Source: Cyanobacterium sp. T60_A2020_053
GTDB taxonomy: Bacteria > Cyanobacteriota > Cyanobacteriia > Cyanobacteriales > Cyanobacteriaceae
DNA: 64,000 bases
Assembly (NCBI GenBank): GCA_015272165.1
Contig: JACYMF010000008.1
Location: 62,001-126,000, forward strand
Direction of reading: 5' to 3'
Made by a program: the position numbers and the translations under genes. Shown here piece after piece: positions 10,296-62,177 of the stretch; within the stretch, counting starts at the first letter, position 1, and each line of letters begins with the position of its first letter. The notes beneath the pieces are model-generated. The model saw nothing but the letters and a program-made list of their open reading frames with translations, had not been told where the DNA came from and did not search any database.

Positions 10296-10877
10296 CTATA
10301 TAATCCAACGAAAGGTTAAATTAATGCGAGGGGCAACAAATTTAGTAGTTTTGGGGATTTGATGTAACCAATAGTGTTGAGTTTCACCCCCCATCACTAA
10401 CAAACTACCGTCAGTTAAATTAATTTCGGTTTTAGCTGGGTTTTTTTTGTCTCTCGATTTCAACATAAATCGCCTGACTCCGCCAAAACTAACGGAAGCA
10501 ATGACGGGATTTTTGCCCAATTCTGGCTCATTATCGCTATGCCATCCCATACTATCTTGACCATTTCGATAGTAATTTAATAATACGCTGTTAAATTCAT
10601 GATTAGCAAGAGGTTCAACTTTTGCTTTTATTTGTAATAAACACTCTAACCAATCATTACGATACATAGTCAAACCTGAATAGGTGTAATTTTTATCGCC
10701 ATACCAAGCGATTAAGCGTGGTTGTAAGTGAGTTTTGCCAAAAACAGTTATGGAATCTTGGCGCCATTGTATTTCTTGTTGTAGTTGTGTGAATATTTGA
10801 TCACTGGTGGCATGATCAAATAAATTAGGATAGTAGTAAATGTCGCTATGGGGTAAATCAATTTTGGTCAGTATCAT
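10296..10877 (-). CDS. AlkB-like Fe(II)/2-oxoglutarate-dependent dioxygenase
   Basis: 193 residues resembling the ALKBH2/ALKBH3 branch of AlkB, which removes alkyl groups from N1-methyladenine and N3-methylcytosine in nucleic acids. The iron ligands are His113 and Asp115 in WHSDNEPELG and His172 in HYWLHQIPK. The 2-oxoglutarate-binding arginines are in PRINLTFRWI at the C terminus. The loop NYYRNGQDSMGWHSD is typical of the family. It is a single gene, on the opposite strand to its neighbours, with no adjacent ada or alkA. A role in alkylation repair is inferred from the family; RNA substrates are also possible. Confidence 0.92.
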   Translation of the reverse strand: MILTKIDLPHSDIYYYPNLFDHATSDQIFTQLQQEIQWRQDSITVFGKTHLQPRLIAWYGDKNYTYSGLTMYRNDWLECLLQIKAKVEPLANHEFNSVLLNYYRNGQDSMGWHSDNEPELGKNPVIASVSFGGVRRFMLKSRDKKNPAKTEINLTDGSLLVMGGETQHYWLHQIPKTTKFVAPRINLTFRWII

Positions 10878-11202
10878 ACAGTTGATAATGGGTAATTAGT
10901 TATTAATGATCTTTCTTAAAAATCTCTACTTTTCACCTTATAAATAATAAGATTTGTATTTTTAAAATACTATAAAGCCTAATCAAATAAACTTTGAGTC
11001 AATGATTTTCTATTAATTTTTCATACCTACTGTAAAATCGCCAACTTTTTTTTCTCATTTTTCTTAATTTATATTAACATTATCAAAAGGTCAAAAGAAG
11101 ATTCATGAGATTTTAATTAATTATAATTAAGAATATAAATTGCTCAATTTCTAATTTATAGCTATAGTAAAGACTGACATATTCAAAAAATACTAAGAAA
11201 CG
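10878..11202. other. Intergenic region without recognised feature
   Basis: 325 bp of AT-rich sequence between two divergently read genes. No repeat family of this window, RNA gene or small ORF is supported. A TATAGT hexamer near 11164 could be the -10 of the downstream membrane-protein gene. Confidence 0.5.
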
Positions 11203-12843
11203 ATGATACCAATCATGGATTATCCACCAAATTTTAATTTTAATTTTATTATAGCAACTTTAGCTCAAATCCCGATTGCTGAAGATGTAATTCCCTTACT
11301 AATTAGCGTGGGAAAGGCTCTTTTAATTTTGATTGTTGGTTTGATTTTAGCCAATATTTTCAAGACAGTTATCAAAAAATGGTTACATAAAACCGACATT
11401 GATAATAAAATTGCTAATTTTATTGTCGGGGAGAATAGTCAAGTATCATCACAAATTGAAACAGAAAAATGGATTTCTGAAATTGTTGGTTGGATTATTA
11501 CTCTTATAGTCATAGTTGCTTTTCTCGATGCTTTAGATTTAGATGTGGTTTCTCAGCCACTTAATGCGCTTTTAGAACAAGTTTTGGCGTTTTTACCTAG
11601 TTTGGGGGGCACTGTTGCTTTATTGGCAGCGGCTTGGGTTATTGCTACGGTAGTTAAGCTATTTATAGTTAAGGTTTTTCGTCAATTAAATATCGATGAA
11701 AAATTAAATCAACAAGTACAAGATGAGGAAGAAGGATTAGAAAATACCGAACAAATTGCTATCGGTGAAACCATCGGTAATGCGCTTTATTGGTTTATTT
11801 TTCTCCTGTTTTTACCTTCTATTTTAGGTATTTTAAGACTAGAAGGTACTTTACGACCGTTAGAAGAATTAGTCAGTGATATATTGGGCATTATACCCAA
11901 TATTTTCTCGGCGGTTATTATTGCTTTTATTGGTTGGGTAGTTGCCCAAGTGGTGAAAAAAGTAGTAATTAATTTGCTCAAGGCAACTGGTGTAAATATT
12001 ATTGGCGAAAAGTTCGGTTTATCTGCTACTAAAAAGAATCAATCTCTAGCTTATATTATTGGTTCAGTAGTCTATATATTGATTTTAATTCCTATTGCTA
12101 TTACTGCTCTTGATGCTTTACAAATTAAAGCTATTTCTGTTCCAGCTATTGCAATGTTGGATCAAGTTTTGGAGCTTTTACCCAAGTTATTTGCCTCGAT
12201 TTTAGTTCTAGGCTTTGCTTATTTTGCCAGTCAATATTTAGCAGAGTTACTCACTAATTTATTAACTAATATTGGATTTAATAATGTTTTTGTATGGTTA
12301 GGGATTACGGAATCAGCGCCCTCCACCGCACCTCAAGCCGATGAGGAATTGTATGAAACACCTCAATCCTATGAGGAATCCTCTGAGAATATAACTAAAA
12401 CACCGGCGCAGATGGTGGGCATTGTTTTAATTATTGCCATCATGTTAATTGCCACTGTGACGGCGGTGGATATTTTACAAATTGAGGCGTTAAAAGAAGT
12501 AGTTGCTTTTATCTCCCTGTTAGCTGGACAGGTATTAGTGGCGATTGTTATCCTTGGAGTAGGGTTATATTTTGCTAATTTAGTGTTTAGATTAATTGCT
12601 AATTCTGGCACTAATCAGGCGCAATTTTTAGGACAAACTGCGCGCGTCGCCATTATGGTGTTAGTCATTGCTATGGCTTTGGAAAGAATCGGCATCGCGC
12701 CTAACATTGTTAATTTAGCCTTTGGCTTGTTAATGGGTGGTATTGCGGTAGCCATCGCCCTTGCCTTCGGTTTAGGAGGTAGAGAGGCGGCAGGAAGGGC
12801 GCTACAGCAGTGGTTAGACTCTTTTTACACCAGAAATGATTAA
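11203..12843 (+). CDS. Mechanosensitive-channel-like membrane protein with repeated TM_helix units
   Basis: 546 residues, almost entirely hydrophobic. It is built from about four repeats in which an LDALDL- or LDALQI-like turn is followed by LLEQVLAFLPSLGG- or MLDQVLELLPKLFA-like amphipathic segments and a membrane helix (about 95-175, 200-285, 290-365, 400-500). This is the conserved TM_helix arrangement annotated as mechanosensitive ion channel-like. It has no MscS beta domain. It ends GLGGREAAGRALQQWLDSFY. An acidic loop (about 365-395) separates repeats three and four. A pore function is inferred only from the family name. A good terminator follows at 12866. Confidence 0.82.
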   Translation: MIPIMDYPPNFNFNFIIATLAQIPIAEDVIPLLISVGKALLILIVGLILANIFKTVIKKWLHKTDIDNKIANFIVGENSQVSSQIETEKWISEIVGWIITLIVIVAFLDALDLDVVSQPLNALLEQVLAFLPSLGGTVALLAAAWVIATVVKLFIVKVFRQLNIDEKLNQQVQDEEEGLENTEQIAIGETIGNALYWFIFLLFLPSILGILRLEGTLRPLEELVSDILGIIPNIFSAVIIAFIGWVVAQVVKKVVINLLKATGVNIIGEKFGLSATKKNQSLAYIIGSVVYILILIPIAITALDALQIKAISVPAIAMLDQVLELLPKLFASILVLGFAYFASQYLAELLTNLLTNIGFNNVFVWLGITESAPSTAPQADEELYETPQSYEESSENITKTPAQMVGIVLIIAIMLIATVTAVDILQIEALKEVVAFISLLAGQVLVAIVILGVGLYFANLVFRLIANSGTNQAQFLGQTARVAIMVLVIAMALERIGIAPNIVNLAFGLLMGGIAVAIALAFGLGGREAAGRALQQWLDSFYTRND

Positions 12844-12865
12844 TTGATAGTTGATAATTGATAAT

Positions 12866-12899
12866 GGGTTGAACAATATTCGTTCAACCCTTTTTTTTT
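12866..12899 (+). terminator. Rho-independent terminator
   Basis: Stem GGGTTGAAC / GTTCAACCC with a 7-nt loop, followed by nine T residues. It ends the transcript of the channel-like gene, three bases before the stop codon of the convergent symporter gene. Confidence 0.9.
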
Positions 12900-12901
12900 C
12901 C

Positions 12902-14494
12902 TTATTTTTCTAGTTGATTTCTAATTTCTTGGTGATATTCTTTGGTAATGGGGTAAAAGTAAGCTAAAACCATCCCGATAACTAATACCAGTGCCGGTAA
13001 AATACTCACTACTAAACGGATGGCGAGGAGGGCGCTGGGGGGTTGGGTGGGGATTTCTTCCCCCGGTATTGTGCGCAAAAATCCTGATAAATCAAGTGCA
13101 ATTCCTACTAAAAATAACCCTAAAGCTAAACCCATTTTTTGTAATAAAACCATAAAACCATAAAAGATTCCTTCTCGTCTTTTTCCTGTATTTAACTGGT
13201 CTAAATCAATAACATCAGGTATCATTGACCAAGGAATCAGATAAGCTACTGATACTCCACAACCTGCTAAAATTGCTAAAAAATATAATAAACCAGTCTG
13301 CCCCGGTTGCACTAAAAATAAACCTATTTCAGCAATAATCCAGATTATTGAACCTAAAAAATAGACGATTTTTTTATCTAATTTTTTGCTGATTAATTGC
13401 CATACAAATAACATTACTAAAGCTGTACCTTGCACAGCAATAGCGACTTGGGGAAACGATGCCTCTGGCATTCCCATCCAATTTACTACGAAAAACAGTA
13501 AAATTGAAGCGGTTAATTGTACTGCTAACCATGAACATAAATAGATACCAATTACATATAAAAAAGGCTTATTTTGCAAAGCAATTTTTAATTGTTCAAA
13601 AAAAGGGATATTTTCTTCATTGTCTCCTTGTATTAAAGATTGCGTTAATAAATGTTTTTCTGTTTTTCCTTTAATTAAAGTCCATGACATAGTAGTAAGT
13701 AAAATCATAAAAAACAGACTGATTATGCTATTGAAAATAGTTTGACTATTAGAGTTAGTTAATAAATTAGTTACACTAACTATTAATAAAATAGTCGCAA
13801 TAGACAGTAAAATTAAGCCAAAAATTGTTTTATTTTTTGGGGATAAAAATGGTTGGTATCCTCTTTCTCTTAACTGTAATGGACACCATAATAATGAAAT
13901 TATACTGATTAAACTAGAAATTAAACCAAGAATAATATATTTTTCTTGATCGCTATCTTGATAAACTTGAAAGATTATTTGAGCTAAAATTAATGAAAGA
14001 ATACTAGCGCCAATAGAAAAACTAAAACGAAAACTATTCAGGGAAGTGCGCTCATTATAATCAATAGTTAACTCTGGAGTAAGGGCTTGATAAGGTAGAT
14101 TTACTGCTGTATAAAATATATTAAAAATTATACCTATTATCACATAATAAATAAATAGAAAAATTTGGTTAAAATTTGGTACGATCCACTGTAGAAAAAA
14201 ACTTAATCCAAATGGTATTGTTGCTAAAATAATCCAGGGCATTCTTCTTCCCCATTTAGTGGAAGTGCGATCACTTAAAATACCAATAATTGGATCATTA
14301 ATAGCATCAGCGATTTTGCCGATCATTAAAACACTACCTGCTAAACTAGCAGTTAAACCAGCTACATTGGTCAAAAATGGTAATAAAAAGAATACTAATA
14401 AATTGGCGGTGAGGGCGCTGGCAATATCTCCGGCACCAAAGGCAATTTTAGTGGTTAAATATAGTTTTTCTGCTGATTTTTCTTGATTTTCCAT
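12902..14494 (-). CDS. MFS transporter of the GPH (glycoside-pentoside-hexuronide) family
   Basis: 530 residues with 12 predicted membrane helices. The signature between helices 2 and 3, ILSDRTSTKWGRRMPWI, and the N-terminal KIAFGAGDIASALTANLLVF place it in the MFS_2/GPH cation symporter group related to MelB. These proteins import sugars with Na+ or H+. The insert of about 60 residues between the two six-helix halves is typical. No sugar-metabolism gene is adjacent, so the substrate cannot be assigned. Its stop codon is nearly abutted by the terminator of the convergent gene. Confidence 0.9.
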   Translation of the reverse strand: MENQEKSAEKLYLTTKIAFGAGDIASALTANLLVFFLLPFLTNVAGLTASLAGSVLMIGKIADAINDPIIGILSDRTSTKWGRRMPWIILATIPFGLSFFLQWIVPNFNQIFLFIYYVIIGIIFNIFYTAVNLPYQALTPELTIDYNERTSLNSFRFSFSIGASILSLILAQIIFQVYQDSDQEKYIILGLISSLISIISLLWCPLQLRERGYQPFLSPKNKTIFGLILLSIATILLIVSVTNLLTNSNSQTIFNSIISLFFMILLTTMSWTLIKGKTEKHLLTQSLIQGDNEENIPFFEQLKIALQNKPFLYVIGIYLCSWLAVQLTASILLFFVVNWMGMPEASFPQVAIAVQGTALVMLFVWQLISKKLDKKIVYFLGSIIWIIAEIGLFLVQPGQTGLLYFLAILAGCGVSVAYLIPWSMIPDVIDLDQLNTGKRREGIFYGFMVLLQKMGLALGLFLVGIALDLSGFLRTIPGEEIPTQPPSALLAIRLVVSILPALVLVIGMVLAYFYPITKEYHQEIRNQLEK

Positions 14495-16614: not shown

Positions 16615-16835
16615 CCCCCCTCTCCTATGGGAGAGGGGCATTTTCATTCTCAAAATTGTTAGTTTCTCAAACTAGCTAATAGTCTGAAACTTAGAGGTTT
16701 TTAACTAGAAATAAATTAACTATTAGTAAAAAATCTCCCTTTCTCCCGTGCTTCCTCTGCTTCCCCTTCCAAAATTTAGATTTTTGGTTCGACTTTGAAA
16801 ATCCCCTGCTATGGGAGAGGGGTAGGGGGTGAAGG
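16615..16835 (-). repeat. Repeat family B, full copy
   Basis: About 220 bp with palindromic ends (CTCTCCTATGGGAGAG on the left, CTATGGGAGAGGGG on the right) and a core TTAGTTTCTCAAACTAGCTA. Copies in either orientation occur at 45923, 48697 and 58169. Together with repeat E it fills the 383-bp gap downstream of the chemoreceptor genes. No ORF. Confidence 0.8.
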
Positions 16836-16870: not shown

Positions 16871-19800
16871 CTAACTAACTTTAAATCGTGCCACGTTAGA
16901 TTCTAACTGTTGAGCAACTTGTAATAATTGCCCGAAAGAATCAGATAATTTAGTTACCGAAACAGTAGTTTTTTCCGCAACTCGTGCCACATCAGACATT
17001 TTTTCGCCCACGCTTTCCGAGTTTTCCGACTGCTCAAAAGCAGCAGCCGCAATCACTTCTACCAATTCGTTAATCTGTAAAGTAGCCGCCGTGATTTGGT
17101 TCAAACTTTGGCGCGTTTCCTCCACCAGTTTACTACCTTCTACCACCTGCTCGTTACCTTGTTCCATCGCCGTTACTACGCTTTTGGTTTCTGAGATAAT
17201 TTCACTAACTAGCTTTTCAATATCAGCCGTTGCTGATGCTGATTGACTCGCCAGCGCCCTCACCTCTTCAGCAATTACCGCAAACCCTGTTCCTTGCTCC
17301 CCGGCGCGCGCCGCCTCGATGGAGGCTTTCAAAGCCAAAAGGTGAGTTTGAGCAGCAAAGCGCCCGATGAGAGATACCACATTGGAAATATTTTGGGTCG
17401 TATCCCCTAACTTTTTCACCTGTTTGGCTGCCTGTTGCACCGTAGTCCGAATATCGAGAATAGATTTAACCGTCCGGTTCATGGCGAGGTCCCCCATTTC
17501 TACGCTCTCTTGGGCTTTTTGCAGGGCTTCTTCTGCCTGTTCAGCACTTTCCGCCACCATATTACTAGAACGACTCATAGCGTCAATAGTAGCTAAGGCT
17601 TGGCTGATATTTTCTACCTGTTCCCTGATTTCTCCTTGTAAGACCTTAACATCACTTTCGTTAATGGTAGTAGTTTCCGTTACAGAAAGCGCCGCCGTTT
17701 GTACCTGAGATACAATTTTACGCAAGTTTTCAATGGTGGCATTGTAAGAGTCAGCAATAGTGCCGATTTCATCTTCCGTCACCGTGGCTCGAATGGTCAA
17801 ATCACCATCAGAAACTGGATCAACCTGCATTAAGAGGTCTAAAGCTCGTTTTTGTAATAACTCCCTTGCCTCTCTTTGTTCTTGCTCTGAGTTTCGCTGA
17901 GTTTCTACTAACTGCACCCTTTCCAAACCTAAACCCACTTGAGTGGCAATTTGTCCAAAAATCTCCACTTCTCCTTTTTCCCAATTTCTCGGTCCTGAGC
18001 ATTGATGACAAATTAATAATCCCATCAAATTCTGATTAACGATGATGGGCGATACTAAGTTGGCGATCACTTTAAACGGCTCAAGTTGTTTAAGGTGACA
18101 TTCCGTTAATCCAGCTTGATAAATATTGGGGGTAGCCTGTACGCGCCCTTGCAAGTATTTTTCCACATAACGATCTGCAAAACAAGGATCAGCAACAGTA
18201 GCGCCCAAAGCCTGTGGATAGCCTTGTACTACTGATTCAGCGGTAATTGTACCCTTCCAAGTTTCGTCAAATTCATAAACAATGGTACGGTCAGCGCCCA
18301 TCACCGGTCGAACTTCCGCTACGATTTGATTTAATAATTGCTGACGACTACTTTTAGACGCAATAGAAAGAGTTAATTCTTTGAGCTGATCTGATCTTCT
18401 CGCACTAAGGATTTGACCTTTCAACAGGTTAACCCTGTCCAAAATCACCCCAAAACGCAGGGCAAGTTGTCCCATAAAGGTAATTTCTTTATCCTCCCAC
18501 TGATGGTAATTTTCACAATGGTGGGCGATAAATAAAGCGAATAATTGTCCCTGACTGATAATCGGCACTACTAAATTTGATTTAATTTGCAATCTGTGCA
18601 TCAAGGCTTCGTGTTCAGGTGCAAATCCAGCTTCATAGACATTTTCAGTAGGTACAACTCGACCATTGATGTAGGCTTCCCTTAATTCTAAAGGAATACA
18701 AGGATCGTTAATTTCTTCTTCAAGGGCGCTAGGGAATCGGACGCTACCAGCTTCATTAGAAATATAACCACTCCAATCCGGTTTAAAACGATAAATAACC
18801 ACCCGATCCACTTTTAAAATGGCTTGAGCTTTAGCTAAAGCGCGGTTAAATACCTGATCCACGTCAGTTTCATCTAGGGTTTTCGCCCCTGTAATTTCTT
18901 GTAATAACACCGCTTTGTCGTTATCTAACATTAACATCTCTTGGTTTTCAGCGATGTTATCAGCTAACTGGTTAAAAGCTCTACCTAGTTTACCAATTTC
19001 ATCATCCCCTAAAATATTAATTTTCTCCCTATAGTCTCCCTCGGCAAATTTTTCCGTTGCTCTTTGTAAATTTTCAATTCTACGAGCGATTGCCCTTCCT
19101 AAAATGACAATAAAAATTAGGTTTAAGGCAACAACTGCCACCGCAACTTGTGATTGTAAAGTCACACTATTGCGCAAAATCGAGTTTAATTCTGTCTCTG
19201 GTGTACCGCGCACCAATACCCCTACGGGTTCATCTAAACTGTTGATAATGGCACGGGCGCTTACTGTGTAAATATCGTCTTCTTCTGCTAAATTAGTTCT
19301 GGTGAAAACAATTTCGCCTTCATTTTCCAGCGCCCTCCGCAATATACCTTCATCGGCTAAAGGTTCATCATATTCCAATTCTTCATTATGTTCGTGAGAG
19401 GCGCTGGCTAACTGAAATTGTCCATTATCTAATAATTTGTAAATTGCTGAATAACCACCGTTAAACTCATTTACAGTAGTTTCCACCACACTATATTTAC
19501 CATTAATGACATCACCAGCTACCAGCGCCCCAATAACTCGATTAGTATTAGGAACTACCACTGGAGTCACCACATAACGAATTAAAGCATCGCTACCCGG
19601 TTGAAAAAGTCTGAGATTCAGGGGATTTTCCCTTTGTAATTCATCCCAAGATACCAACTCACTGATCCGAATTTGTTGATTACTTTCGATTGCCCTTGTT
19701 ACTAATCCTTGGGGGTCAAAAATTTCTCCCTGACGGTTACTAGCATTACCATTAACAATAATACGTTTATCTATACCTACCAAAGTAGCATATTCGATAT

Positions 19801-20266
19801 TTCTAGCATTAATTTCGTTTAAAAGAATTTGGCGCGCTACCCTCAACTGGTCTATGGAGGGATTTTGTCCATTAAATTTAGTTAAAGCAGTGTTAATAAT
19901 AGCTGAGTTATCGGATTGACCACGAAAACCAAAACTCATTTGATCAATTTTTATATCATAATTAACTGCTGATGCCTTTAACTCAGATGCTGATTGTTTG
20001 GCTAACTGTTGTCTTCCTCCTCGGATGGTTTGGGTTACACCTACCCCCACCAGAGAGGCAATGGCTAACGCTTGAGCAGTCACCAATACCAATAACTGTT
20101 TTTGTCTTAAGGAAAGGTTGTAGAACCATTGCACCACTGGACCTAGTTCTTTTTGAGGTTCTTCTGGTGCTTGACTCGGAGGGGGGGTAACAATCGGAGT
20201 TCGGTCAATTTTTTGGGTTGTTACACGATTGAGATTTAATCTAGGTTTTTCGGGCGCTTGTGTCAT
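16871..20266 (-). CDS. Methyl-accepting chemotaxis protein with one cyanobacteriochrome GAF (PixJ-like)
   Basis: The start is taken at ATG 20266 (MTQAPEKPRL), not the upstream TTG at 20326. The tandem paralogue begins MTQTSPKP, and the extra 20 codons lie next to a 17-bp tandem repeat. The 1131 residues are: membrane helix ~58-78, periplasmic sensor domain, helix ~374-393, HAMP, GAF1 ~461-611, GAF2 ~637-786, a second HAMP-like linker, and an MCP signalling domain to the end. GAF2 has both cysteines of DXCF cyanobacteriochromes: Cys695 in ADPCFADRY and Cys723 in [14 protein letters not shown]1 keeps DPC (Cys523) but has PEHEAL where the bilin Cys should be. The hairpin tip reads QTHLLALKASIEAARAGEQG, altered from the consensus. 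It probably signals light to a CheA-like kinase. Confidence 0.92.
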   Translation of the reverse strand: MTQAPEKPRLNLNRVTTQKIDRTPIVTPPPSQAPEEPQKELGPVVQWFYNLSLRQKQLLVLVTAQALAIASLVGVGVTQTIRGGRQQLAKQSASELKASAVNYDIKIDQMSFGFRGQSDNSAIINTALTKFNGQNPSIDQLRVARQILLNEINARNIEYATLVGIDKRIIVNGNASNRQGEIFDPQGLVTRAIESNQQIRISELVSWDELQRENPLNLRLFQPGSDALIRYVVTPVVVPNTNRVIGALVAGDVINGKYSVVETTVNEFNGGYSAIYKLLDNGQFQLASASHEHNEELEYDEPLADEGILRRALENEGEIVFTRTNLAEEDDIYTVSARAIINSLDEPVGVLVRGTPETELNSILRNSVTLQSQVAVAVVALNLIFIVILGRAIARRIENLQRATEKFAEGDYREKINILGDDEIGKLGRAFNQLADNIAENQEMLMLDNDKAVLLQEITGAKTLDETDVDQVFNRALAKAQAILKVDRVVIYRFKPDWSGYISNEAGSVRFPSALEEEINDPCIPLELREAYINGRVVPTENVYEAGFAPEHEALMHRLQIKSNLVVPIISQGQLFALFIAHHCENYHQWEDKEITFMGQLALRFGVILDRVNLLKGQILSARRSDQLKELTLSIASKSSRQQLLNQIVAEVRPVMGADRTIVYEFDETWKGTITAESVVQGYPQALGATVADPCFADRYVEKYLQGRVQATPNIYQAGLTECHLKQLEPFKVIANLVSPIIVNQNLMGLLICHQCSGPRNWEKGEVEIFGQIATQVGLGLERVQLVETQRNSEQEQREARELLQKRALDLLMQVDPVSDGDLTIRATVTEDEIGTIADSYNATIENLRKIVSQVQTAALSVTETTTINESDVKVLQGEIREQVENISQALATIDAMSRSSNMVAESAEQAEEALQKAQESVEMGDLAMNRTVKSILDIRTTVQQAAKQVKKLGDTTQNISNVVSLIGRFAAQTHLLALKASIEAARAGEQGTGFAVIAEEVRALASQSASATADIEKLVSEIISETKSVVTAMEQGNEQVVEGSKLVEETRQSLNQITAATLQINELVEVIAAAAFEQSENSESVGEKMSDVARVAEKTTVSVTKLSDSFGQLLQVAQQLESNVARFKVS

Positions 20267-20324
20267 TTTTCTTGGCGTTGATAACAGCGTAATTTTATTG
20301 GTTCGTAGGGGTTGAATATTATTC

Positions 20325-20383
20325 AACCCTTATAGAGTTTTAACCCTTATAGAGTTTTAACCCTTATAGAGTTTTAACCCTTA
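20325..20383. repeat. 17-bp tandem repeat, three units plus a partial
   Basis: The unit AACCCTTATAGAGTTTT is repeated exactly at 20325, 20342 and 20359, then broken off at 20376-20383. It lies just upstream of the first chemoreceptor gene, where its promoter or leader would be. Confidence 0.92.
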
Positions 20384-20386
20384 ATA

Positions 20387-20457
20387 GCTTCGCAATTTCC
20401 CCACCGTGTAATGAATTACACGGCTATTAGGTATCGTTCAATAAATTGAACTAAGAT
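20387..20457 (+). repeat. Repeat family C, full copy
   Basis: CTTCGCAATTT, then CCGTGTAATGAATTACACGG, then GTTCAATAAATTGAACTAAG: the same order as at 2001-2073. It sits between the two chemoreceptor genes, adjacent to the 17-bp tandem repeat. Confidence 0.78.
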
Positions 20458-20489
20458 TAGATGATGATTATTCATAATTCATAATTCTT

Positions 20490-23400
20490 CTAACTAACTT
20501 TAAATTTACTGACACTTTCTTGTAAATTTTCAGAAACTTTCAATAATTTACGGAATTTGCGTGCTACGTCTTCCACCGCCGTAGAAGTTTCACTGGCAAT
20601 GGTGGCAACATCTGCCATGGTTTCCGTGATTTCGTCTGATGTCTGAGACTGTTCTGCCGCCGCCGAGGCGATGGTAGTTACTAATTGGTTAATTTGGGCT
20701 GAGGCTGCGGTAATTTGGGTCAAGGATGCTCGAGTTTCTTCTACTAACCTTGTACCTTCTACTACCTGTTCTGTACCAAATTCCATAGCTTTTACTACTT
20801 CATTGGTTTCCTGTTGAATCTCAGCTACTACTTTTTCAATATCCGATGTCGCTTCTGCTGACTGGCGCGCCAGTGAGCGCACTTCCTCCGCAACTACCGC
20901 AAAACCTCGACCTTCTTCCCCGGCGTGCGCCGCCTCAATGGATGCGTTTAACGCTAATAGGTTGGTTTGATCGGCAAAACTACCAATCAGGTTCACAACT
21001 TTAGAAATTTTTTGGGTTGATTCCCCTAATCGTTTTACTTTTTTGGCGGTTTCTGCTACGGTTTCTCGAATGGCTAAAATACCATCAACCGTACGATTCA
21101 TCGCTAATTCCCCTTCTTCTACACTGCGATTGGCTTGTAATACTGCTTGTTCAGCTTGTTCGGCGTTATCGAGGACGAGGCGCGCTGAGAAGGACAAAGA
21201 TTGAACCCGTTCTAATGCTACGTTAATATCATCAGACTGACGGAGAATTTCTATTGCCAAGTTAGCAATAACTGCTTCCTGTTCACTAACTACCTCCGTT
21301 ACCGCACGAGTACCACCTTGTACTTGAGTTACGATTTTTCTCAAACTTTCAATGGTCGCATTGTATGAGTCAGCGATAGTACCAATTTCATCTTCCGTTA
21401 CTGTGGCACGAATGGTCAAATCCCCTTGAGATACGGGGTCAACCTGCATTAAGAGTTCTAATGCCCTTTGCTGGATTCTTTCTTTCTCTTGTCTTTGCTC
21501 TAATTCTGAAGCTCTTTGTCTTTCCAATAACTGGATACGTTCTAAAGCTGGTCCAATTTGAGTGGCTAACTGAGAAATAAAGCTGGATTCTGATTCTGTC
21601 CACTGACGAGGTCCGGAACATTGGTGAGCAATTAATAAACCTAAAAGGTTATTATCCACAATTACTGGTGTTACTAAGTTTGCTTTCACTGCAAAGGGTT
21701 CTAACTGCTCAATATGGCATTTCGTCAGCCCAGCGGTGTAAATATTCGGTGTGGCTTGGACTCGACCTTGTTTGTATTTGTCCACATACTTATCAGCAAA
21801 ACAAGGGTCTTTAATCATAGCACCCAAGGCTTGGGGAAACTGTGGATCGACAGATTCGGCAATAATAGTACCTTTCCAATCTTGATCAAAAGTATAGATA
21901 ATCACTCGATCCGTTCTCAAGGCTTCTCTGGTTTTAGCGGTGGTTACCTCGAAAACTTTTTCTTGATTGAGAGATTCAGCAATTTTGAAACTGATGTCTT
22001 TTAATTTGACTGATAAGAAACCGTCTAACTGCTGGTTTTGAATCAACATTACCCGTTCTAAAGCTGGACCCATTTGAGTAGCTGTTTGGGTGAAAAAGTC
22101 GATTTCATTAGGGCGCCAATTTCTGGGGCTAGAACACTGATGAGCAATCAATAGTCCTAATAGTTTTCCTTCTACGACGACGGGCGCTACTAAATTGGCT
22201 TTGACAGCAAAGGGTTCCAACTGCTTGAGATGACAATCTGTTAAACCGGCATTGTAGATGTCGTTGGTAGCTTGTACCCGACCATTGAGATATTTATCAA
22301 CGTATTTTCCTTCAAAACAGGGATCATGAATTTGAGCCCCCAGCGCGCGTGGGTAGTTCCGATCTACTGATTCAGCAATTACTGTCCCTTGCCAATTTTC
22401 ATTGAAAGTATAGACAATGACTCGATCAGAACCTAGCGCTTGACGAATTTCGTTAACAGCAATATTGAACACCTCATTAACTTCAAAGGCTTTGGTCATT
22501 TCAAGGGTAATATTTTTCAGCAAGTTCGACTGAGAAGCAAACATTTGTTGTTCCTGAATCAAATTCCGCAGTTGGGAAGTCATTTGGTTGACATTTTCCC
22601 CTAACTGTGCAATCTCGTCATCCCCATCAACAGCAATTTGTTGATCTAATTCTCCTTGACCAATTTTTTTCACAGCTCGAGACATTTTGGTAATGGGGTC
22701 AGTAGCTTTTCCAGCTAGAAGCAAGGAAGCAACTGCCACCGCAGCGCCCGTCACCACTACCCCAGTGAATAACCATCCCAACAAAGCACTTTTATAGGCA
22801 AAGGCTGTACCACTATCAATGGTAATTAAAGTTTTCCAAATTCTTTGTTCTTGATCTTGTTGCCAAGTATTTAGAGCAAATAAAATCTCCTCGTTATTTT
22901 TTCTTCCTTCTAATACTTCACTGACATCCGCTACGGTGTTACCACCAAGAATATTACGGGTTTGGGGAATTACTTCTTCTATGGTAGTACCCACTAATTC
23001 AGTTTCTGAACTAATAATAATCTGATTTTCACTGTTAACAATATAAAAATCCTGTTGATTATTTCCGATGTAACCAAATAAGTTAGCAATACCGGTGACG
23101 GGAATAGAACCGACTACCACTGCGGTTACTTCCTGACTAGCATTCAAAATGGGTGAAGCCATATATAAATAACTTTCACCATTTCTTTGAATTAAAGAAC
23201 TAATTTTGCTACTTTTTTGGTTAATTACTTCGCTAAAATAACCCTGAGTAAACTGGTTGCCAAAGTCTCTCCCCTCCGTAGTTAGCACTAAATCACCACG
23301 CAGGTTAAATACGCCGATACTATCGAAATCAGGATAAATTTGTAAATAGTTATCTAGGTATGCCTGTTGATCTGCTTCGGTGACGGGCGCTCCTCTAAAA

Positions 23401-23783
23401 GTCCTAATAGTAAAAACATCTAACTGACTAATGGCTTCAATATTTTCTAATCGTGAGTTTAAATAAGTTTCTAACTCTCTCGTGACACTGGAGGCAGTTT
23501 GTGCCAACTGTAAATCAACTTGATTTCTAAACTGGGCATTAGTAGAAAGATAAGCAATACTTCCCACTACCACCGAAGGCACTACCCCCATCAAAATCGC
23601 TGTGATGGTGGCTTTATTCTTCAAATTTTGTTTTTGCCACCAACTTTTAAAAGTATTACCAGCTTGGTTTAATACTGGACTAGAAGATATTTTGGTCACA
23701 GAGGAAGAACCATTCAGTTGTTCTAGATTTTTGCTCTGTGAATTATTAACTTGAGGAGTGGGTTTTGGGGAAGTCTGGGTCAT
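20490..23783 (-). CDS. Methyl-accepting chemotaxis protein with two cyanobacteriochrome GAFs (PixJ-like)
   Basis: 1097 residues: membrane helix 60-81, dCache-like periplasmic domain ~85-330, helix 337-358, HAMP 359-411, GAF1 ~425-580, GAF2 ~595-755, HAMP-like linker ~770-820, MCP signalling domain to the end. Both GAFs carry the full DXCF-type cysteine pair: HDPCFEGKY (Cys489) with TDCHLKQ (Cys517), and KDPCFADKY (Cys661) with TKCHIEQ (Cys689). Family knowledge: such GAFs bind phycocyanobilin or phycoviolobilin and switch between blue- or violet- and green- or teal-absorbing states, as in PixJ phototaxis receptors. The hairpin tip [20 protein letters not shown] is near consensus. It lies upstream of, and is paralogous to, the next receptor. 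No cheW, cheY or cheA is adjacent. Confidence 0.93.
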
Positions 23784-61808: not shown

Positions 61809-62177
61809 TTCAGACTTAACCGTAAAAATAGATTTTAATACTCAAAGCAAGTACATTGTAAAACAATGTAAATTGTTGATACTGATACTTTTATAAGTAA
61901 AACACCTATTCACGGTAATTACATATCAAAAGTAAGATTTACGGCTCCTAATCCAGAGTGAAACTTAATAAGTTTTGTAAGCAAATTAAGCTAAATTTAG
62001 CACAAAGAATTACATTTGAGGACAAGAGAGTAAGGCTTACAGTCTCGGTAGCAGACTATCTAGTGAAGATTCAAATTAATTAAGCAAATCTAAAGAAACA
62101 CCACAGCAGAAAATTATTCTGTTACTATTACTTATTTCCATCAAATTCCCTCTCGTCAGCAAGATAAGCAAATGTTT

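Follow-up and report, generated by a model that had tools for sequence, protein, structure and literature searches.

In Synechocystis, the tax1/pix genes (sll0038-0043) include two adjacent MCP genes, pixJ1 (sll0041) and pixJ2 (sll0042); PixJ1 carries a DXCF cyanobacteriochrome, and its partners are PatA-CheY, CheY, CheW and CheA (PMC7076178, PMC5812497). PixJ2 is listed in reviews just as an MCP. Chemoreceptor arrays have been understood from receptors with nearly identical contact residues, any of which are able to mix. Within the hairpin tip of MCPs (Tsr numbering is used throughout), positions 373, 381, 385 and 388 are trimer-contact residues (PMC8466855) and E385-R388' forms an inter-dimer ionic lock (PMC8144572); binding determinants for CheA and CheW are also found there (PMC4692393).

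Here, we analyzed two receptor genes of Cyanobacterium sp. T60_A2020_053 that lie in a window of 64,000 nucleotides (positions 62,001 to 126,000 of contig JACYMF010000008.1):

20490..23783, minus strand: receptor B (PixJ1 orthologue), 1097 aa, TM-dCache-TM-HAMP-GAF-GAF-MCP
22992..23528, minus strand: periplasmic dCache_1 domain of B (Pfam E 1.2e-15)
20598..21068, minus strand: MCP signalling domain of B (Pfam E 3e-43)
16871..20266, minus strand: receptor A (PixJ2 orthologue), 1131 aa
19196..20023, minus strand: dCache-like periplasmic domain of A between two TM helices, by predicted fold only
16979..17452, minus strand: MCP signalling domain of A (Pfam E 2.5e-39)
16617..16638, minus strand: terminator-like hairpin after A, from a consensus scan only and near shuffle background

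As stated in the original prediction, these are two paralogous chemoreceptors placed head to tail; both are of TM-HAMP-GAF-GAF-MCP layout. A Pfam search found HAMP, two GAF domains and MCPsignal in both, which is the TM-HAMP-GAF-MCP architecture of PixJ-type receptors. B is upstream of A in the direction of transcription, and in the gap of about 220 bases between them the consensus scan detected no terminator-like candidate on the minus strand. The longest reading frame of A starts at TTG 20326 (1151 aa), which we dropped; ATG 20266 is the likelier start because the orthologous proteins start at about residue 20. Other members of the genus and the family share the tandem pair, which is thus not a chance pattern. 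Downstream of A on the opposite strand, three congeners have a 367 aa gene of constant length (L016:13526-14629, L017:13351-14454 and L018:13171-14274, all on the minus strand), which does not adjoin the pair in the window.

A periplasmic sensor domain had also been expected in each receptor, and one could be recognized in both, by Pfam in B and by predicted fold in A. The periplasmic part of A had no match to a Pfam family; its AF2 model (pLDDT 83) matched dCache-type domains, among them those of DctB, LuxQ and Tlp3 (E 1e-8 to 1e-5, TM-score by target 0.56-0.65), and we assign it from this model, with good confidence, as a dCache-like domain. Judged from this anatomy, it is plausible that each receptor integrates a chemical and a light input.

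The four GAF domains of the pair are as follows:

22062..22478, minus strand: GAF1 of B, DXCF cyanobacteriochrome type (DPCF, CH)
21519..21989, minus strand: GAF2 of B, DXCF cyanobacteriochrome type (DPCF, CH); best solved relative TePixJ GAF 3vv4, E 5.9e-48
18443..18865, minus strand: GAF1 of A, DPCI, with Glu at the position of the CH cysteine
17903..18367, minus strand: GAF2 of A, DXCF cyanobacteriochrome type (DPCF, CH); 3vv4 E 1.9e-46

The full DXCF cysteine pair is thus present in three of the four domains, as had been claimed, with the CH cysteine exactly 28 residues past the DPCF cysteine in each of the three. GAF1 of A lacks the pair, and its DPCI and Glu are also found in the family orthologues; bilin binding of the usual kind is improbable for this domain. 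The TePixJ GAF 3vv4 was the closest solved structure to the second GAF of either receptor (E 1e-46 to 1e-48), and a bilin reductase gene (PF05996) as well as three pilus-type ATPases could be identified in the genome. Homology, cysteines and operon orthology agree, and they support the assignment of A and B as predicted bilin-binding receptors of the PixJ type. The suggestion that the two have split spectral ranges gained no such support, as the three complete GAFs are all of the DPCF type and their sequences do not separate colours. In two relatives (L021:10005-13364 of G006 and L022:6495-9857 of G009), the second GAF of A is also without the full DXCF motif, and light sensing seems to be left to B alone.

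Analysis of gene neighborhoods revealed that no che genes adjoin the B-A pair, just as the original prediction noted. Its implication that Che partners are lacking did not hold: three CheA and four CheW genes were identified in the genome, and a pix-type set is found on other contigs. Many relatives in the order have a full operon, patA-cheY-cheW-B-A-cheA-cheW2, whose two MCPs match B and then A in the nearer relatives. The other genes of the operon match one for one a patA-cheY-cheW group on contig C27, which is followed by no MCP, a CheA on C82 and a lone CheW, corresponding to cheW2, on C14. A place in the pix operon of its own genome, usual for a PixJ-type receptor and not strictly defining, was therefore not found for either receptor; both group with the receptors of pix operons (patA-cheY-cheW-MCP-MCP-cheA). 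In the closed, single-contig genome G002, the four pix pieces are located near 0.30, 1.35, 1.94 and 2.41 Mb. Since the same pix cheA, patA-cheY-cheW and cheW2 genes are present on other contigs, the receptors are detached from the operon, not partnerless, and on these sequence comparisons B and A are assigned as the PixJ1 and PixJ2 orthologues of a pix (tax1-type) system whose operon has been dispersed. The pix-type CheA of the family (here L010:5614-12552, on C82) is a very large protein (about 1900-2450 aa) that combines several Hpt domains with a receiver.

A profile of the signalling domain was built and applied to the MCPs of all loci compared in order to read their tips. In the comparison with orthologues, the hairpin tips of B and A were unlike each other:

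20892..20972, minus strand: tip of B, equivalent to Tsr 373-399, with D373, N381, H388 and V399 (R388-less tip)
17273..17353, minus strand: tip of A, equivalent to Tsr 373-399, with A373, H376, K381, R388 and I399 (K-tip)

The second tip, given after that of B, is AAQTHLLALKASIEAARAGEQG. Neither has the canonical Tsr-type tip in which N381, E385 and R388 are all kept; E385 is kept in both, and the departures are K381 in A and H388 in B. The same split was observed in all 55 complete tandem pairs (54 distinct ones, as L153 repeats L075), where columns 373, 381, 388 and 399, out of 239, differ in the same sense. The K-tip member has Ala at 373, Lys at 381, Arg at 388 and Ile or Leu at 399, whereas its partner has Asp or Glu, Asn, His or Asn, and Val, respectively (column 373 also shows one Ser on each side). 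Among the 25 columns with the most frequent differences in nine sister-like pairs, no further one differed in all 55. At positions 376/381/388, 45 tandem sets were NNH then HKR and six were NNH then NKR; three complete triples each combined an NNN and an NKR member with one that was NNR or SNR, and one set was ordered HKR-NNH-NNN. Single receptors of the pix lineage keep N381, R388 and V399. We propose that a PixJ2-type partner be defined as a K-tip receptor beside an R388-less receptor, which is the arrangement of A and B. No description of this split was found in the open-access papers searched.

We also examined the occurrence of both tips in an even sample of the class (390 genomes). DNA patterns matched the K-tip in 21 genomes and the R388-less tip in 25; after reading of the loci, a K-tip receptor was present in 26 of the 390 genomes, and all 26 had an R388-less receptor beside it (25 with His and one with Asn). 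One genome, G020, has two such sets. Thus, in the sampled genomes, the K-tip and the R388-less tip were never found apart. A few MCPs outside such pairs (L089:4023, L072, L078 and L119) have lost R388 and have no K partner. It should be noted that this co-occurrence owes much to the inheritance of one operon. Several candidate exceptions were rejected: the f43 genomes, R388-less with no K pattern, do have an HKR tip, spelled HMLAMKA, which the DNA pattern missed; the K-pattern match of G180 is not an MCP; and L057, L070 and L034 are not true single receptors, their loci being cut by contig ends. In G040 (L024:7080-10544 and 10750-14148, both minus strand), the sensor halves are swapped relative to the tips, and one K-tip and one R388-less tip remain. 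Two receptors in a pix system do not require the split, because the adjacent pix receptors of Moorena (L074/L152) both have the canonical N381/R388 tip.

In five genomes (four of one genus and G400), the second receptor is only a hairpin of 166-223 aa without TM, HAMP or GAF, which is located between pixJ1 and cheA and has an invariant K-tip:

L031:7378-7875, minus strand: reduced second pix receptor
L035:12180-12851, plus strand: reduced second pix receptor
L139:9280-9933, plus strand: reduced second pix receptor
L140:818-1336, minus strand: reduced second pix receptor
L141:8088-8759, minus strand: reduced second pix receptor

The unchanged tip of these sensorless proteins suggests that PixJ2 is needed for its tip and not for a sensor. 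When a reduced receptor was modelled as a monomer with AF2, the result was one long helix (pTM 0.53), which says nothing about pairing.

The best explanation overall, which we consider reasonably probable, is a dispersed pix system in which B and A are the obligate partners PixJ1 and PixJ2. Blue or green light would isomerise the bilin in the three complete GAFs, and each receptor might also read a periplasmic ligand via its Cache-type domain. Both would feed the multi-Hpt CheA of C82 via the CheW of C27 and/or that of C14, and phosphate would then pass to the C27 regulators (PatA-type and CheY), which may act on type IV pili. At the tip, B lacks the R388 half of the E385-R388' lock and has an acid at 373, whereas A has an extra Lys at 381 and Ala instead of the acid at 373. 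Homotrimers of B or of A would then be poor, and mixed trimers of dimers could balance the charges of the two and satisfy the contacts. The tip asymmetry gives strong, though indirect, support to the mixed trimers of B and A that the original prediction had raised as a possibility; that such PixJ1-PixJ2 trimers are obligate and held by charge complementarity is what we infer from the residues.

As the same residues touch both trimer partners and coupling proteins, the B/A difference could instead serve contacts with CheA and CheW. The split would then suit the two receptors to separate coupling proteins (A might dock on CheA or one CheW, for example, and B on the other CheW) with no special pairing. 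The location of CheA and CheW determinants in the tip (PMC4692393), the two CheW types of pix systems (C27 and C14) and the position of the K-tip receptor next to cheA in nearly all operons are in line with such a fit. However, operons with one canonical NNR receptor (L113 and L132) also have both CheW types and a C82-type CheA, so that the presence of a second CheW is not tied to the split, and of the four fixed columns three correspond to trimer contacts. We therefore regard this reading as unlikely, but as the most serious competitor of obligate pairing.

A second possibility is that the differences simply date from a single ancient duplication and were retained through drift and common descent, with no function in pairing. 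In the signalling-domain tree most K-tips (HKR) indeed cluster, and the operon is passed on as one unit. Yet no part of an MCP is normally more conserved than the tip, and the sensorless receptors keep their K-tip invariant. In addition, in a tree computed without the tip columns the K-tip receptors did not form one clade, and a single K-tip clade was rejected (log-likelihood difference 136, AU p=0.007). Partners that are split alike were sisters in that tree in f58 (100/98), in the f24 pairs (100/100) and in the Chroococcus group (99/99). Either the split would have arisen several times or the genes exchange sequence while their tips stay different. With partners sister outside the tip and the K-tip clade rejected, both origins point to selection on the difference, and descent from one duplication is improbable as a sufficient account. 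Finally, A and B might be orphan photoreceptors that joined another Tax system once the pix operon was lost, but this is very improbable. The two do lie away from every che gene, and cheY, cheW and MCP genes are present within the C105 and C25 clusters. However, the patA-cheY-cheW of C27, the CheA of C82 and the CheW2 of C14 are all intact and are conserved throughout the family, two members of which (G008 and G014) still have B-A-cheA in one contiguous run.

Obligate pairing of PixJ1 and PixJ2 thus remains the preferred reading. Its extension to pix systems in general is held more tentatively, at somewhat less than even chances: an obligate hetero-oligomeric chemoreceptor whose tips are individually defective and complementary, which forms an array only from mixed teams and whose PixJ2 has in some lineages been stripped to its tip, as a structural subunit and no longer a sensor. 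If this is true, B and A would represent receptors that are made to mix solely with one another, PixJ2 would have a concrete job, and the tandem receptor genes of pix operons would be explained. A few residues would also offer a simple handle for testing the effect of trimer composition on kinase control and phototaxis. More generally, receptors that look like orphans can be part of an operon that has been broken up and yet remains complete across the genome.

Compared with known systems, the pair resembles the Synechocystis tax1/pix system in its two neighbouring MCP receptor genes, so that a tandem pair is ordinary for pix operons; unlike that system, as far as it is compared by description, the operon here is dispersed, a DXCF GAF is present in both receptors and A is full length. 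TePixJ of Thermosynechococcus provides the closest solved GAF and shares the DPCF and CH cysteines 28 residues apart, whereas each receptor of the window, compared with TePixJ for the GAF only, has two GAFs and a Cache-type periplasmic domain. PtxD of Nostoc punctiforme is likewise a cyanobacteriochrome MCP for phototaxis and has its own Che genes; in contrast with the window pair, it is a single receptor with many GAFs, for which the review describes no paired partner (PMC5812497). As in Tsr and Tar of E. coli, the MCP hairpin tip has trimer-contact residues that permit mixed teams (PMC4692393), but Tsr and Tar mix via nearly invariant contact residues, whereas B and A are substituted oppositely at theirs.
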